Shown here piece by piece: positions 1-32,097 of a stretch of DNA of 32,559 nucleotides (position 1 is its first letter; every line of letters starts with the position of its first letter). The DNA comes from Deltaproteobacteria bacterium. GTDB lineage: Bacteria; Desulfobacterota; Binatia; DP-6. Both the position numbers and the translations under genes were made by a program. A model generated the notes under the pieces. That model saw only the letters and a list, made by a program, of their open reading frames with translations. It ran no database searches and was not told the origin of the DNA. Where the stretch lies: NCBI GenBank assembly GCA_005879795.1, contig VBKJ01000148.1, positions 1 to 32,559 of the forward strand, read 5' to 3'.

Positions 1-1370
1 TTACTCTTGGCGGCGAAGACCAGTGAAAGGGTGGAGGGTTTCTGGGAGGATGCCGCGTCACTCTCCTGGCGGTGTGCCACAGAGATGACGCTCGCTCGCG
101 GGTCGACGTCTCCCAGCGCGGAGCGCTGCTGCGTTCCCGGTACGGACACTCGCCCGCCCGCTGCGAGCGGCGGTTTTCTCGCGGCGTGTGGCGGGGCTCG
201 CCTGAGGCGGGCGATGGCCCTCGCGATGGCCAGCCGGTGCGGGGCGGGCGTGAGCGAGCCGTCCAGGGCCTCGGCCACCCGCCCCGGATCGAGGGAGGCG
301 AGCGCGCCCGGGTCGGCGGCCAGGTCCGCAGCCCGGGCCACGATCTGCTCCGAGATGCGCGCGAGGGCCGGACGGGCCTCGCGCTCGAGGTCGAGGCCGT
401 CGACTTCTTCGGGATGCGCCAGGAACTCGCGCTCCAAGGCGCGTGCCGCCTCGATCTGGGCGCGGAAGAGGGCCTCGATCGCCGCCGGGTCGAGGCCCCG
501 CTCGGCGGCCCGCGCACGGACCGCGCCGAGGACGCGCGCCTCCTGCTCCGGATCCTCCACCGGCCGGCCCGTCTTCTGCTTGGCCGCGGCGACGGCCGGC
601 ATGAAGGCGAGCCGCAGGTCGACGAGCGCCAGGAGCGCTTCCAGATCCGACGCGAAGGCGGAGCGGGCGGCCGCGCGTGGCGCGCCGAGCCAGCGGGCGC
701 GGAGCGCGGCGAGCGTCCCGTCGGCCTCGCGAGCGCGGAGCCAGGCATCGAGCTCGGCGACGAGCGCCGGATCGCGCCCGAGGTAGGCCTTCCGATCGCG
801 GGTGAACGGCCCCAGACGGACGGCGCCGGGGAGCGCGAGCGCGTCCGCCTCGGCCTCGTCGGTCAGGATGGCATCCGCGGCCCCGCTCGCGAGCAGCTCC
901 GCGAGCGCGCGGTTGTCGTTCGTCCGCACCAGCAGCGCGTGCGGGAAGAGGCGCGCGGCGACCCGCTCGAGGTGCCCGCCCGCGTTCACCCCGAGTCGGA
1001 GCCAGGAGCTGCGCGGGTCGAGCCGCTGGTGGGCGAGCACGACCGCCCCCGCCTCCGCGACCGGGCGCGTGAATACGCCCGCCACGGCCCGCTCCGGGCG
1101 GGCCGTGACGCCGCCCATCGCGAGGTCGAAGCGCCCCGCCGCGAGGTCCCGCGTCAGCTCCGGCCAGCGGAAGCGGACGAGCTCGAGGCGGCGGCCGCTG
1201 TCGCGCGCGAAGCGGCGTGCGACCTCGACGTCGAGCCCCTCGAGCGTGCCGTCGCGCGTGAGCGAGAAGGGCGAATAGTCGCCGCTCGTGCCGACACGGA
1301 GCGGCGGCAGCGCGGGCGGCGCGTGGAGGCACGCCGCGGCGAGGACGGCCAGCGCCGCCGCGCGCCTCAC
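1..1370 (-). CDS. Exported cyclohexadienyl dehydratase (PheC-like) fused to secreted-type AroQ chorismate mutase, 3' end outside window
   Basis: The frame opens with GTG at 1370, inside the dapB stop (GTGA overlap), and stays open to base 1. After a short hydrophobic leader (about residues 1-20), residues 23-230 read as a periplasmic binding-protein-like PheC domain: VGTSGDYSPFS, EGLDVEVARRFA, AGRFDLAMGG, NAGGHLERVA and TDEAEA all match cyclohexadienyl dehydratases. From about residue 240 comes a second domain with DLRLAFMPAVAAAKQKTGRP and VEDPEQEA, the signature of exported (gamma-class) AroQ chorismate mutases. Together the two domains would convert chorismate to prephenate and then to phenylpyruvate outside the cytoplasm. 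The order is dehydratase-mutase, the reverse of cytosolic mutase-dehydratase P-proteins. Downstream of about position 200 the sequence looks unlike the family, so a frameshift or an extra tail is possible. The leader contains a Cys (AAAC), so a lipoprotein cannot be excluded. Confidence 0.8.
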   Translation of the reverse strand, partial: MRRAAALAVLAAACLHAPPALPPLRVGTSGDYSPFSLTRDGTLEGLDVEVARRFARDSGRRLELVRFRWPELTRDLAAGRFDLAMGGVTARPERAVAGVFTRPVAEAGAVVLAHQRLDPRSSWLRLGVNAGGHLERVAARLFPHALLVRTNDNRALAELLASGAADAILTDEAEADALALPGAVRLGPFTRDRKAYLGRDPALVAELDAWLRAREADGTLAALRARWLGAPRAAARSAFASDLEALLALVDLRLAFMPAVAAAKQKTGRPVEDPEQEARVLGAVRARAAERGLDPAAIEALFRAQIEAARALEREFLAHPEEVDGLDLEREARPALARISEQIVARAADLAADPGALASLDPGRVAEALDGSLTPAPHRLAIARAIARLRRAPPHAARKPPLAAGGRVSVPGTQQRSALGDVDPRASVISVAHRQESDAASSQKPSTLSLVFAAKS

Positions 1371-2164
1371 AGCCCGAGCACGTCGCGCATCGAGTAGAGG
1401 CCGGGAGGCCGTCCCGCCACCCAGCGCGCGGCGCGCAACGCGCCGCGCGCGAGGCAGTCGCGGCTCTGGGCACGGTGGACGAGCTCGAGGCGCTCGCCGA
1501 GGCCGCCGAAGACGACCGTATGGTCGCCGACGGCGTCGCCGGCGCGCAGCCCCACGATGCCGATCTCGTCGCGTGGCCGCTCGCCCACCAGCCCCTCCCG
1601 TGCGAGCCGCTTCGCCCGCTCGAAGTCCTGGCCGCGCGCCGCCGCCACCGCGCGCGCGAGCGCGAGGGCCGTGCCGCTCGGCGCGTCTGTCTTCGCGTGG
1701 TGGTGCAGCTCGACGATCTCGGCCTCGAAGCTCGTGTCGAGGAGGCGCGCGGCGAGGCTCACCAGCGCGGTCAGCACGGTCACCCCCACGCTCATGTTGG
1801 GCGCGAGCACGGTCCGGGTGCGGGCGGCGAGCGCGGCGAGCTCGCGCTGCTGGCCGGCGTCGAGGCCGGTGGTCCCGATCACCAACCCCGCGCCGCGCTC
1901 GGCCGCGAGGCGCGTGTGCGCGAGGGTCGCCGCGGGCGCCGTGAAGTCGAGGACCACCTGCTCCGCCCGGCAGACGGCGCCGAGGTCGTCGCCGACGCGC
2001 ACGCCGACCGCCGCGCCGCCGGCCGCCTCGCCCGCGTCCCGTCCGACCGCCGGGTGGCCGGCCGCCTCGATCGCGCCCGCGACCCGCAGGCGCGGGTCCT
2101 CGCGCGCGAGCGCGACCAGGAGCCGGCCCATGCGCCCCGCCACGCCGCAGACGACGATGGGCAG
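1367..2164 (-). CDS. dapB: 4-hydroxy-tetrahydrodipicolinate reductase
   Basis: This enzyme catalyses the NAD(P)H-dependent reduction step of diaminopimelate/lysine synthesis in the cytoplasm. Visible signatures are the N-terminal nucleotide-binding glycine motif VCGVAGRMGR, the central APNMSVGV loop, and the substrate/catalytic segment ELHHHAKTDAPSGTA. Length is about 265 residues, normal for the family (about 270). The start is odd. The first ATG or GTG in frame (GTG at 2143) would cut the beta strand leading into the glycine motif. The only reasonable upstream start after the dapA stop is CTG at 2164, giving M-P-I-V-V-C-G. The stop overlaps the GTG start of the dehydratase-mutase gene. It is the third gene of dapF-dapA-dapB. 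Confidence 0.93.
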   Translation of the reverse strand: MPIVVCGVAGRMGRLLVALAREDPRLRVAGAIEAAGHPAVGRDAGEAAGGAAVGVRVGDDLGAVCRAEQVVLDFTAPAATLAHTRLAAERGAGLVIGTTGLDAGQQRELAALAARTRTVLAPNMSVGVTVLTALVSLAARLLDTSFEAEIVELHHHAKTDAPSGTALALARAVAAARGQDFERAKRLAREGLVGERPRDEIGIVGLRAGDAVGDHTVVFGGLGERLELVHRAQSRDCLARGALRAARWVAGRPPGLYSMRDVLGL

Positions 2165-28269: not shown

Positions 28270-28419
28270 GTGTCGACCGAGGACCTGGCTCGCACCGGCA
28301 TGCCGGTCGCCATCGCAGCCAAAGTGACCACCCGGATCGGCGGGTCGCCTGCGCCGCGGGCCGCGGACGCCGAGAAGAAGCGGGTACAGATGCCCTACTA
28401 CCGCGACCTCGAAGGTTGA
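28270..28419 (+). CDS. Small open frame (49 aa), unknown
   Basis: GTG 28270 starts 1 base after the cupin stop. It encodes 49 residues, alkaline in the C-terminal half, ending EKKRVQMPYYRDLEG. No family is recognised. Its direct continuation from the cupin stop and the non-random end hint at a real small protein, but there is no clear ribosome-binding site. It may equally be random open frame in GC-rich DNA. Confidence 0.3.
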   Translation: MSTEDLARTGMPVAIAAKVTTRIGGSPAPRAADAEKKRVQMPYYRDLEG

Positions 28420-28483
28420 GCGCGAGCACCGCGTCACCGCCTCGGCGCGACAACGCGATTGACGGCGAGCCGAGGCCTCTACT

Positions 28484-28900
28484 ATGGTTGGAGCGCACGG
28501 CGGTCGCATGGTGGAAATCGTGCCTCCCAACGCTCTCGAGAGCCGGCGGCGCGTCCGTACCGTGCGGTGGCCGATGGGGCCGCTCTTGGGCTCATGCCTT
28601 TCCTTGAGCCTGTCGCTGTCTGGGATCGGTGCGGGCGTCGCGGAGGCGATCCACATCTCCACCGCAGAATCGGTCGTCTTCGTCTGCCGCCGCGACCCAC
28701 CCGAGGTGCTCAATTCGAGCAGCAGCGCGGGCGCGCCCGTCGTGACCGCGGGGACTGCCTGCGCTCAGGCGCTCGCCGACGCTCTGGTTGCGGGCTTCCG
28801 CCTCCAATCCGTGATCGCTTCGTTCGCTAGCGGAGATATCGCGTTCCCGCGTTACACCCTGATTAGGGTGCCCAACGCAGAGGATGATGGAGCCGGTTAG
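28484..28900 (+). CDS. Secreted seven-repeat cysteine protein, N-terminal part before in-frame TAG
   Basis: ATG 28484 (also ATG 28508 and 28574 in frame) leads to a signal peptide, MGPLLGSCLSLSLSLSGIGA, then the first copy of a repeat: VVFVC, SSSSAGAPVV, CAQALADALVAGFRL and YTLIRVP. The frame meets TAG at 28898-28900 and then continues without shift for 443 codons that hold six more copies. The part alone is 138 residues and would be a single-repeat exported protein. The shorter start at 28574 gives the most typical signal peptide. The family is not recognised. Confidence 0.7.
   Translation: MVGAHGGRMVEIVPPNALESRRRVRTVRWPMGPLLGSCLSLSLSLSGIGAGVAEAIHISTAESVVFVCRRDPPEVLNSSSSAGAPVVTAGTACAQALADALVAGFRLQSVIASFASGDIAFPRYTLIRVPNAEDDGAG
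28898..28900 (+). other. In-frame amber codon interrupting the repeat protein
   Basis: TAG lies at the junction between repeats 1 and 2 (G-TAG-A-A-I-I-F). In repeats 3 and 5 the same position is a CAG glutamine codon (GQKAV and QQAAI), so the TAG is one C-to-T change from a plausible ancestor. The reading frame is otherwise intact on both sides. It may be a recent nonsense mutation, an assembly error, or a readthrough site. Confidence 0.85.
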
Positions 28901-28930
28901 GCCGCGATCATCTTCTCCTGCGACCTCTCT

Positions 28931-30232
28931 TTGAAGACTTCCATCGCCAGCAACAGCTCGGGTGCGCCCGTCGTGACCGCCGGGACTCCCTGCGCCCAGG
29001 CTCTCGCGGATGCCATGGTCGCTGGCTTCAGCCTGGAATCGGTCATCCGTGCATTTCAAAATCTGGATTTGAACAATGGGAACCGCGTCACTGGCGGCGT
29101 CCCGACCTACACCCTCGTCAGGACGCCAACGGGAAGGTGCCCTGCGTGCGGCGAGAACGCGGTTGTCTTGACCTGCGGCCAAGACCCGCACGGCCCGCTC
29201 CTCGGCTCGAGCAGCAGCGCGGGGGCGCCCGTGGTGGGTGCCGGCGTCCGCTGCGCTCAGGCGCTCGCAGACGTTCTCGGCGCGGGCTTCCGTCTCGAGT
29301 CTGTCATCCCGGCATTCACGTCAGGGTTCCCGACCTACACCTTGATCGAGCGGCCGGGTGCAATGCGGGACGCGTTCGGTCAGAAGGCGGTCATCTTCAC
29401 CTGCGGGCGGCAGGGGCTCGAGGTGCTCGGGGGTTCCGACAGCAGCACGGGTGCGCCCGTGGTCGCCGACGGAGCCCCGTGCGCTCAGACGCTCGCACAT
29501 CTCCTCGCTGCCGGTCTGCGCGTCGTTTCTGCGATCCCGACAAGTGTCTCGAATCTTCCAACCTACACCATGGTCACAGAGCCGGGCGGGAACCCGGAGA
29601 CCTCTCACGCGGAAGCGGTCATCTTCGTCTGCCTCGGCGGCGGTGGATTCGACGTGCTCAGTTCGAGCAGCAGTATGGGGGCGCCGGTTGTGGCTGCGGG
29701 AGTTCCCTGCGGGCAGGCGCTCGCGGACGGTCTCGATGCGGGTTTCAGGATCGAGTCCATCATCCCAGGATTCGCCTCGAACGCCTCGCACGAGCTGATC
29801 TACACCTTGATCAAGCCAAGGAGAAGGAGCGACACCTCCGATCAGCAGGCTGCCATTTTCGCCTGCGACGCATCCAACGTCGTCGCTTCGGGTAGCAGCA
29901 CAGGCGCGCCTCCCGTCGCTGGTAAGTCCTGCGCTCAGGCGCTCGCGGACGTCCTCACTGAGTGCTTCGACGTCGCGGCGATCCTCCCCGGTTTGGGCTT
30001 CCCGACCTACACCCTGGTGAAGCGGCCCGCGGGAAGGTGTCGTCGACCGGGTCGCGAGGCGGTCATCACGTGCGGGGGCTTTTCGAGCAGCAGCGCAGGT
30101 GCGCCGGTCGTGGCTGCCGGCACGCCCTGTGCCCAGGCCTTGGCGGACGTTCTGAGCGCGGGCTTCAGGATAGAGCCCACGGAACCGCTCTTCAGCGGGA
30201 GTCTCCCGTATACGTTGACCGGCAAGCCGTAG
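28931..30232 (+). CDS. Secreted seven-repeat cysteine protein, main part after in-frame TAG (six repeats)
   Basis: The frame is the same as in the upstream part and is really open from 28901; TTG 28931 is only the first possible start codon and has no ribosome-binding site, so independent translation is unlikely. About 434 residues hold six copies of a unit of 66-87 residues. The core is SSSSxGAPVVxAG, CAQALADxL, AGFRxESVIPxF, PTYTLIxxP and then AVIFxC. Each unit has two near-invariant cysteines (in VIFxC and CAQALAD), which suggests one disulfide per unit outside the cytoplasm. Key Cys codons fall at 28760, 28991, 29252, 29480, 29708, 29930 and 30128, all spaced by multiples of three. No C-terminal anchor is seen. 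The fold and function are unknown. Confidence 0.72.
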   Translation: MKTSIASNSSGAPVVTAGTPCAQALADAMVAGFSLESVIRAFQNLDLNNGNRVTGGVPTYTLVRTPTGRCPACGENAVVLTCGQDPHGPLLGSSSSAGAPVVGAGVRCAQALADVLGAGFRLESVIPAFTSGFPTYTLIERPGAMRDAFGQKAVIFTCGRQGLEVLGGSDSSTGAPVVADGAPCAQTLAHLLAAGLRVVSAIPTSVSNLPTYTMVTEPGGNPETSHAEAVIFVCLGGGGFDVLSSSSSMGAPVVAAGVPCGQALADGLDAGFRIESIIPGFASNASHELIYTLIKPRRRSDTSDQQAAIFACDASNVVASGSSTGAPPVAGKSCAQALADVLTECFDVAAILPGLGFPTYTLVKRPAGRCRRPGREAVITCGGFSSSSAGAPVVAAGTPCAQALADVLSAGFRIEPTEPLFSGSLPYTLTGKP

Positions 30233-30430
30233 GGGACGGGCCCGACTCCTCGAAGACTCTCGTACGATTGGGAGATCGTCCTCGACGGCATGCGCCTGAC
30301 ATTCAACGGGACGCCCGACGGAGGCCCAGATCAACAACGCCGCCGAGGTCGCATGGGCCGCCAGTTACGTCCGCTCTCCCCTGGCATCTCCGGCGGCGCT
30401 GAGCCGTTCCGAGCGCCCGCGCCGCGTGGG

Positions 30431-30961
30431 TCACACCGCCGGCCGCACCGACGCGCTCGTCATCTGCCGATAGCGCCATACGATGGCCTTGCCGTACGCC
30501 ATCGTGCGCGGGCCGTGCATCGCGAGGTTCGGGCCGCCGTGGTAGAGCCGCGCCGCCGCCTCCACGTTGCCGTGCGTCCGCCGGAGCGCATCGCGGTAAT
30601 AGAACGCCCCCATGAGGAGGTTGTCGAGCGCGCTCCGCGCGTTGACGGGGCGGCCGAGCAGCCGCGCCGCTTCACGCGCGTACTGGCGAATCGCGACGGG
30701 CATCAGCTGGGTCAGGCCGACGGCTCCGGCTTCGCTGACCGCGTTCGGATTGCCACTCGATTCCTGCATGACCACGGCGCGGAGCAACGCCGGGTCGATA
30801 CCGACGAGGCGGCCTACGGCGTTCATCTCTCGGGCGAAGGGTTGGCCGTGCGACACACTCCTGATCACGCGGGCATCGGCGAACATCTCGCCCGCATGCG
30901 CCGGCAGCACACCGGAGAGCAGGAGCGCGAGCATCAGCGACCTGCCTAGGCGTTTGAGCAT
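30431..30961 (-). CDS. Lytic transglycosylase (SLT domain)
   Basis: The 176-residue exported protein has a signal peptide (MLKRLGRSLMLALLLSGVLPAHA) from ATG 30961; in-frame ATGs at 31015 and 31045 would add a basic extension without homology. The goose-lysozyme-like SLT domain is shown by VVMQESSGNPNAVSEAGAVG with the catalytic Glu, LTQLMP, and RLYHGGPNLAM near the end. It would cleave peptidoglycan glycan strands in the periplasm. It lies between the repeat protein and the RlpA-like lipoprotein gene, on the opposite strand from both. Confidence 0.88.
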   Translation of the reverse strand: MLKRLGRSLMLALLLSGVLPAHAGEMFADARVIRSVSHGQPFAREMNAVGRLVGIDPALLRAVVMQESSGNPNAVSEAGAVGLTQLMPVAIRQYAREAARLLGRPVNARSALDNLLMGAFYYRDALRRTHGNVEAAARLYHGGPNLAMHGPRTMAYGKAIVWRYRQMTSASVRPAV

Positions 30962-31346
30962 GCCGCCCAGAGCAGCCCTCGTGCCGAAGCGGTAATTCCG
31001 GGATCGGCCCGTCATTCGGCGGCCACCCCGTGCCGTGCGCGCCACGTGCCCGTGCCCGTCCTGGCACGCGAGTGCTGAGTGCCACAGGGCGACCTACGCC
31101 CGATCCGCCTGCGAAAGCCCGCGACGTCGGCAGACAGCGCGCTGCAGCCGAGTCCCTACGGAACGAGAGGAGGTGCGCGCCCCAGCCCGCGGGTACACGG
31201 AGGCGGATCGCGCGCTGAGATGAACGACCAGCGTTGGGTGGCCGCAGGCGGCGGCTGGGGTCGCCGGGGTCCCGAGCCGCAGCCCGTTCCACGGCCCTCA
31301 AGAACCCGTAGCGGTCTGCCGAAGTACCGCGTGAGGGAGAGCAAGC
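30962..31346. other. Gene-free stretch
   Basis: About 385 bases upstream of the transglycosylase gene on one side and of a possible small lipoprotein on the other. Several open frames cross it on both strands, but none has motifs, a ribosome-binding site or biased third positions that I can support. It probably holds promoters for the flanking genes; no clear box pair was found. Confidence 0.4.
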
Positions 31347-31538
31347 ATGCGCGAGCTCGTCGTGGTGGGTATCGCTCGTACGGTTCTCGTCGGGTGCGCG
31401 GGTCGGACCAAGCCCGGCGCCCCGTATGACGAGTTCTGCACACCTACGCTGCGGGCCGCGATGGCGCGAGCGTGGGAGACGAGTGACGCGAGCTCGGGTT
31501 GCAGATGGCGGCTCATCGTGATTGGCCCCTCTGCATGA
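31347..31538 (+). CDS. Possible small lipoprotein (63 aa)
   Basis: ATG 31347 is preceded by GGGAGAG at a good distance. The start MRELVVVGIARTVLVGC resembles a lipoprotein signal with lipobox LVGC, though the hydrophobic core is broken by an Arg. The remaining residues (GRTKPGAPYDEFCTPTLRAA) show no family. It stands alone 59 bases before the RlpA-like gene. Confidence 0.35.
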   Translation: MRELVVVGIARTVLVGCAGRTKPGAPYDEFCTPTLRAAMARAWETSDASSGCRWRLIVIGPSA

Positions 31539-31596
31539 AGCTCAACGGCTGGCGCCGTGTTCGCAGCGGCGAGCGTCATCGGCCGCAGCGCATCCG

Positions 31597-32097
31597 ATGG
31601 CCGATGGTGTAAGAGTGGAGCGCCGTCTTTGCTTGGTCGCCGTTCTCGCGGCGGGTCTTCCAGTAGCGGGCTGCTCGCTCTGGCAGCATCGTCCGCCTAC
31701 TCCGGCGCCGGCTGGAGGAGCGGTCCAAGTCGGGACGGCGTCGTGGTATGGCGCTGAGCTACAAGGAAGCCGGACGGCCAGCGGCGAGCGATTCGACCAG
31801 CGCGCCTTTACCGCCGCCTCGCGCTCGTTCCCCATCGGCACCCGGGTGCGGGTAACGAACCTTGCCAACGGGCGCTCGGTCGTGGTCCGCGTCAACGACC
31901 GTGGGCCGTTCGCGCCCGGTCGCGTGATCGACGTGTCGCGCGCCGCGGCGCAGGTGCTCGGCATGATCGAGCGTGGAACGACGCGTGTGCAGATCGAGTC
32001 GCTCGGGGAGGGTCCGCCCGGGACCGTGACAGACCGCGCACGACCAAAGAAGTCACGACGCCGAGGCGGGCGGACCCGTCGCGCTCCGCAAGGCTAG
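31597..32097 (+). CDS. rlpA: RlpA-like septal ring lipoprotein (double-psi beta barrel)
   Basis: A 166-residue lipoprotein whose leader RRLCLVAVLAAGLPVAGC ends in a VAGC lipobox. The DPBB domain carries GTASWYGAELQGSRTASGER, VRVTNLANGRSVVVRVNDRG and the PGRVIDVSRAAAQVLGM motif of RlpA. In RlpA the AAH histidine after the first strand is catalytic or needed; here it reads FTAASRSFPIG, so Ser replaces His, while the Glu of SGERF and Asp of NDRGPF are kept. It has no SPOR domain and ends in a basic tail. ATG 31597 or GTG 31615 could start it. Peptidoglycan cleavage is uncertain; a binding role is possible. Confidence 0.85.
   Translation: MADGVRVERRLCLVAVLAAGLPVAGCSLWQHRPPTPAPAGGAVQVGTASWYGAELQGSRTASGERFDQRAFTAASRSFPIGTRVRVTNLANGRSVVVRVNDRGPFAPGRVIDVSRAAAQVLGMIERGTTRVQIESLGEGPPGTVTDRARPKKSRRRGGRTRRAPQG

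Follow-up and report, generated by a model that had tools for sequence, protein, structure and literature searches.

Seven units in one coding frame

What kind of protein is encoded by a frame of seven cysteine-containing repeats that is broken by a stop codon and belongs to no catalogued family? The question is raised by a locus in a 32,559-nucleotide stretch of DNA from a Deltaproteobacteria bacterium (contig VBKJ01000148.1, here called the window). Translation of 28574-30232 yielded seven homologous units that share one frame (28574-30229), interrupted by one TAG (Table 1). A sequence-only reading of the window had described this frame both as uninterrupted and as split by a TAG. The single frame with its seven units holds, whereas the two descriptions contradict each other, and one stop lies within the frame. 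Forward frame +1 has two stops, the TAG inside the frame and the one at its end; the other forward frames have 6 and 15.

All 21 pairs of units scored z = 11 to 29 against shuffled units, and the unit 1 region matched the rest of the protein with E = 2.4e-19. Changes between units were distributed as 454/354/618 over the three codon positions, favoring position 3, and pS exceeded pN in 21 of 21 pairs, including those downstream of the TAG. The excess at position 3, together with pS > pN in all pairs, indicates that the frame evolved as a coding sequence. Its codon bias is weaker than that of the neighboring genes for MiaE, DNA polymerase IV (Pol IV) and a cupin (GC3 of 0.79 versus 0.92-0.95). 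Two open frames run antisense over the repeat gene on the minus strand, at 29321-30337 (338 aa) and 28592-29191 (199 aa); such frames are as expected in GC-rich DNA, and nothing supports their status as genes.

The C-terminus of the protein reads LPYTLTGKP, which fixes the phase of the unit. Each unit therefore starts with the strand AVIFTC, followed in order by the segment SSSxGAPVVxAGxxC, the helix CAQALADxL, the strand FRxESVIP and, as its last element, the strand PTYTLIxRP. With the phase corrected in this way, seven complete units of 57-75 residues span the protein from just past the signal peptide to the C-terminus. Two cysteines are invariant in 7/7 units, which bears out the earlier proposal of two conserved cysteines per unit; the codon spacings given there are exact for the helix cysteine (231, 261, 228, 228, 222 and 198 bases).

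Table 1. Coordinates of the repeat gene, its parts and the genes that follow it (positions in the window, except for the last row, which lies in genome G012)
Feature	Position	Strand	Remarks
Whole seven-unit gene, as frame	28484..30232	+	ATG 28484; one internal TAG; terminal TAG 30230-30232
Alternative starts of the repeat gene	ATG 28508, ATG 28574	+	
Signal peptide (predicted)	28484..28648	+	n-region with RRRVRTVR, hydrophobic LLGSCLSLSLSLSGI, AEA cleavage-like site; basis hydropathy
Unit 1	28673..28873	+	
In-frame TAG	28898-28900	+	In linker between units 1 and 2, eight residues past the end of unit 1
Unit 2	28904..29128	+	11-residue loop insertion
CPAC (CxxC) motif	29138..29149	+	In linker after unit 2; frame residues Cys 189 and Cys 192
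Unit 3	29159..29356	+	Used for structure prediction
Unit 4	29387..29584	+	
Unit 5	29615..29815	+	
Unit 6	29849..30028	+	One extra Cys inside and one in the next linker
Unit 7	30059..30229	+	Ends YTLTGKP, then terminal TAG
Lytic transglycosylase SLT gene	30431-31045	-	After the repeat gene
RlpA-like DPBB gene	31522-32097	+	After the repeat gene
L015 (G012)	1114-1917	-	Unit joined to collagen-like stretch

The internal stop codon

As assembled, the TAG would end translation, and the exported product would consist of the signal peptide and unit 1 only. This one-unit product has the architecture of the single-unit relatives described below. Recoding of the TAG was ruled out; TAG also ends the cupin and RlpA-like neighbor frames and the repeat frame itself.

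All six downstream units are intact, and the TAG is therefore either recent or an error. We give about even odds to the reading that covers both cases, a gene broken recently or misassembled in the metagenome-derived genome, such that the seven-unit protein was, or still is, the real product; this would be compatible with the explanation that we favor below. The six units past the TAG remain in frame with no further stop, and the pS > pN pattern extends to them. Among the genomes searched, the seven-unit gene was found in the source genome only.

The N-terminus carries a predicted signal peptide

The n-region is uncharged if translation starts at 28574, whereas the start at 28484 gives it a charge of +4; the start at 28508 also takes in RRRVRTVR. 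A GAGG sequence is present at 28472-28475, 8 bases upstream of ATG 28484. The lone promoter-like match (TTGACG-18-TATGGT) overlaps ATG 28484 and, if real, would favor 28508 or 28574. The true start is probably upstream of 28574, at 28484 or 28508, which adds a positive n-region.

Signal peptides were judged by hydropathy and charge in six leaders of the family. By these measures, the family members carried an N-terminal signal peptide, and leader hydropathy thus predicts that every member is exported. The predicted signal peptide and the lack of a catalogued family support the sequence-only reading in its view of the protein as an extracellular string of small two-cysteine domains.

Relatives of the unit

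Searches of Pfam and NCBIfam gave no match above noise for the whole protein or for any unit, and the PDB sequences contained no relative of the unit. A profile built from the window units alone did find homologues: within the class, it matched three genomes besides the source genome (E of 9.5e-7, 8.8e-8 and 2.7e-7 per genome). Two of these proteins (L006/L016 and L004/L039) consist of a signal peptide, one unit and a stop. In the third (L005/L015), the signal peptide and single unit precede a collagen-like Gly-x-x stretch, and the C-terminus beyond it contains cysteine. Hence the unit occurs in other genomes at another copy number, namely as single copies, a point that the earlier reading had proposed to check.

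Scanning 84,980 species genomes with a DNA pattern returned five places, two of them true: L039 and a new relative, L040. The latter matched, with E = 7.4e-12, a profile built without it and is 40% identical to unit 3. It comes from a different group: its genome (G527) did not appear in the samples of the source genome's class and phylum and shares a phylum sample with the genome of L038. Across the family rows, the first cysteine, at the end of strand 1, is present in 11/12 and the second, at the start of the helix, in 12/12. The unit is a real domain family, sparse in what was searched and mostly single-unit. An exported bacterial domain absent from the Pfam and NCBIfam copies searched is thus newly described here; it adds a small extracellular domain to those known, and the seven-copy chain is unusual.

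A second profile brought up a weaker fifth relative, L017 (E = 1.6e-4). In L017 (minus strand, 1501-1614 and downstream), the strand with the cysteine, VAILAC, comes after the YTL strand and not ahead of the GxP segment; it seems to lie C-terminally instead of N-terminally, the order that a circular permutation of the unit would give.

No match was obtained in phage and plasmid records (tblastn), and no relative was found in viral contigs (two scans) or in genome contigs scanned with near-consensus peptides. Several hundred further genomes, including the phylum samples, gave chance matches only and no further true relatives. The profile or pattern matches put down to chance on reading were L013, L018, L020-L023, L026, L028, L029, L031, L038, L041, L042, L044, L045, L048 (racemase-like), L054, L055 and L056. 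L019, a Cys-rich secreted protein, looks unrelated. The matches read and judged were those other than L024, L025, L027 and L033.

Predicted fold of the unit

AlphaFold2 models were calculated for unit 3 and L040 from a shallow alignment of 9 rows. Unit 3 was predicted as beta-beta-alpha-beta-beta (pLDDT 80.8), and L040 gave the same order of strands and helix (pLDDT 90.0, pTM 0.74). The structure of one unit, which the earlier reading had recommended predicting, is therefore modeled as a self-contained domain. That reading had also allowed for a solenoid, an idea that we rejected because the unit is predicted to be self-contained and occurs alone in nature.

GFRP was the best Foldseek hit in the PDB for both models (E 0.1-1.6, probability 0.44-0.98). 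In VIA-align comparisons, where a Z below 8 can mean no more than a common arrangement, unit 3 aligned with GFRP at Z 6.8-7.2 (61-63 residues, rmsd 2.3-2.4 A) and with KCTD1 at Z 6.0-6.2, the next fold scoring 4.5. With L040, KCTD1/8/12/16 and GFRP filled 14 consecutive rows at Z 6.1-7.5, and the next fold scored 4.9. The GFRP and KCTD matches represent one fold, because the KCTD1 C-terminal domain and GFRP have been reported to have a common fold and to form a pentameric ring with no discernible sequence similarity (PMC7618933), and the H1 domain of KCTD8 fits GFRP well (PMC6851490).

The sequences gave no significant link: hhalign of the unit with GFRP returned E = 0.16, a score that 8 of 100 column shuffles also attained, and the GFRP profile (PF06399), with hits accepted up to E = 10, matched none of the 12 members. 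DUF4177 and GFRP models likewise found nothing in the sampled genomes of relatives; for GFRP the absence carries little weight, since the GFRP control matched nowhere. It is credible but unproven that the unit shares its predicted fold with GFRP and the KCTD C-terminal domains; we claim neither kinship nor membership of the GFRP family. The earlier statement that the unit has no recognized family stands for its sequence, but its predicted fold is that of GFRP and the KCTD C-terminal domains.

The length of the unit and its helix-GF-strand-YTLxRP pattern (Gly-aromatic, strand-Arg-Pro) resemble DUF4177 (PF13783). Pfam gave no DUF4177 match in 12/12 family members, and none was found in 38 genomes of relatives. 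The DUF4177 protein PEG 446 has been described with three strands and a single helix (PMC11322243), whereas four strands are predicted in the unit. Such similarities raise the alternative that the units have a different or generic alpha/beta fold (ACT-like, PAS/GAF-core-like or DUF4177-like) and that the GFRP match reflects only a widespread way of arranging one helix and four strands. Aspartokinase (ACT) regulatory domains do appear lower down the Foldseek list, one family member weakly matched an NCBIfam aspartate kinase model (E = 0.053), and in the VIA comparisons the rows at Z 3-5 are taken up by PAS/GAF/LOV domains. However, two models whose sequences are 40% identical both gave only the GFRP fold in their top rows, with a gap of 1.2-1.5 Z to the next fold, and no member matches the DUF4177 or ACT models in Pfam. 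On balance we regard a different or generic fold as unlikely, though it deserves some weight.

Comparison with GFRP and KCTD proteins

The predicted fold resembles GFRP (PDB 1JG5, 7ACC) at Z 6.4-7.2, with 61-63 of 66-69 residues aligned at an rmsd of 2.3-2.5 A. GFRP differs in being a soluble protein of 83-84 residues with no leader in the solved sequence, in the greater length of the segment that connects strand 2 to the helix, and in having neither tandem repeats nor a matching cysteine pair. GFRP binds GTP cyclohydrolase I (PMC7618933). Given the predicted export, it is unlikely that the unit binds GTP cyclohydrolase I and phenylalanine/BH4.

The L040 model likewise resembles the C-terminal/H1 domains of KCTD1 (6S4L), KCTD8 (6G57), KCTD12 (6QZL) and KCTD16 (6QB7), at Z 6.1-7.5 over 63-69 residues. 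These human proteins differ in that they have an N-terminal BTB domain and one C-terminal/H1 domain per chain, with no signal peptide or tandem array. No BTB domain was detected by Pfam in the window protein.

Proposed function of the chain

We lean modestly towards the following explanation: the gene encodes an exported seven-copy chain of a two-cysteine domain with the GFRP/KCTD fold, probably a multivalent scaffold or binder, and the TAG leaves a one-unit product. The usual form of the family, a signal peptide and a single unit, would have been multiplied here into one chain. Each unit would most likely be held by one disulfide, from the end of strand 1 to the start of the helix. The units may pack against one another like the GFRP-fold domains in rings, although a count of seven does not match the five-fold ring of GFRP. 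Outside the cytoplasm, the chain could then act as a multivalent scaffold or as a binding protein.

Packing of this kind might go further: the family could be an exported, disulfide-bonded bacterial branch of the GFRP/KCTD-CTD superfamily, with the seven fused copies closing into a single-chain ring. We consider this reading improbable. If there were a single-chain ring, it would hold in one covalent chain the kind of ring that separate subunits form in GFRP and KCTD proteins; a true superfamily branch would give this fold, known among the matches here only from solved animal proteins, a relative in bacteria.

It is very doubtful that the TAG is functional, with a one-unit protein exported and the downstream units silent or made through readthrough or internal starts: a stop eight residues past unit 1 leaves the architecture of the single-unit relatives L016, L039 and L040, but chance alone would fairly often place a stop between units, and no signal peptide comes after TTG 28931, the in-frame start downstream of the stop.

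The KCTD1 structure paper asked, without answering, whether the KCTD C-terminal domains and GFRP have a common ancestor, a question prompted by their common fold and ring in the face of no discernible sequence similarity (PMC7618933). If the predicted fold is true, the exported bacterial family would be a third, independent set of sequences for this question, and its single-unit and seven-unit forms would be a natural test of ring formation.

Finally, neither the neighbors of the repeat gene (MiaE, cupin, SLT transglycosylase and RlpA-like) nor the frames around the relatives, inspected by eye, revealed a common partner from which a ligand could be named, and no conserved neighbor genes point to a function. 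Between the cupin and repeat genes, at 28271-28420, lies a short GTG frame of about 50 codons that ends in YYRDLEG; it is either a remnant or a small gene.
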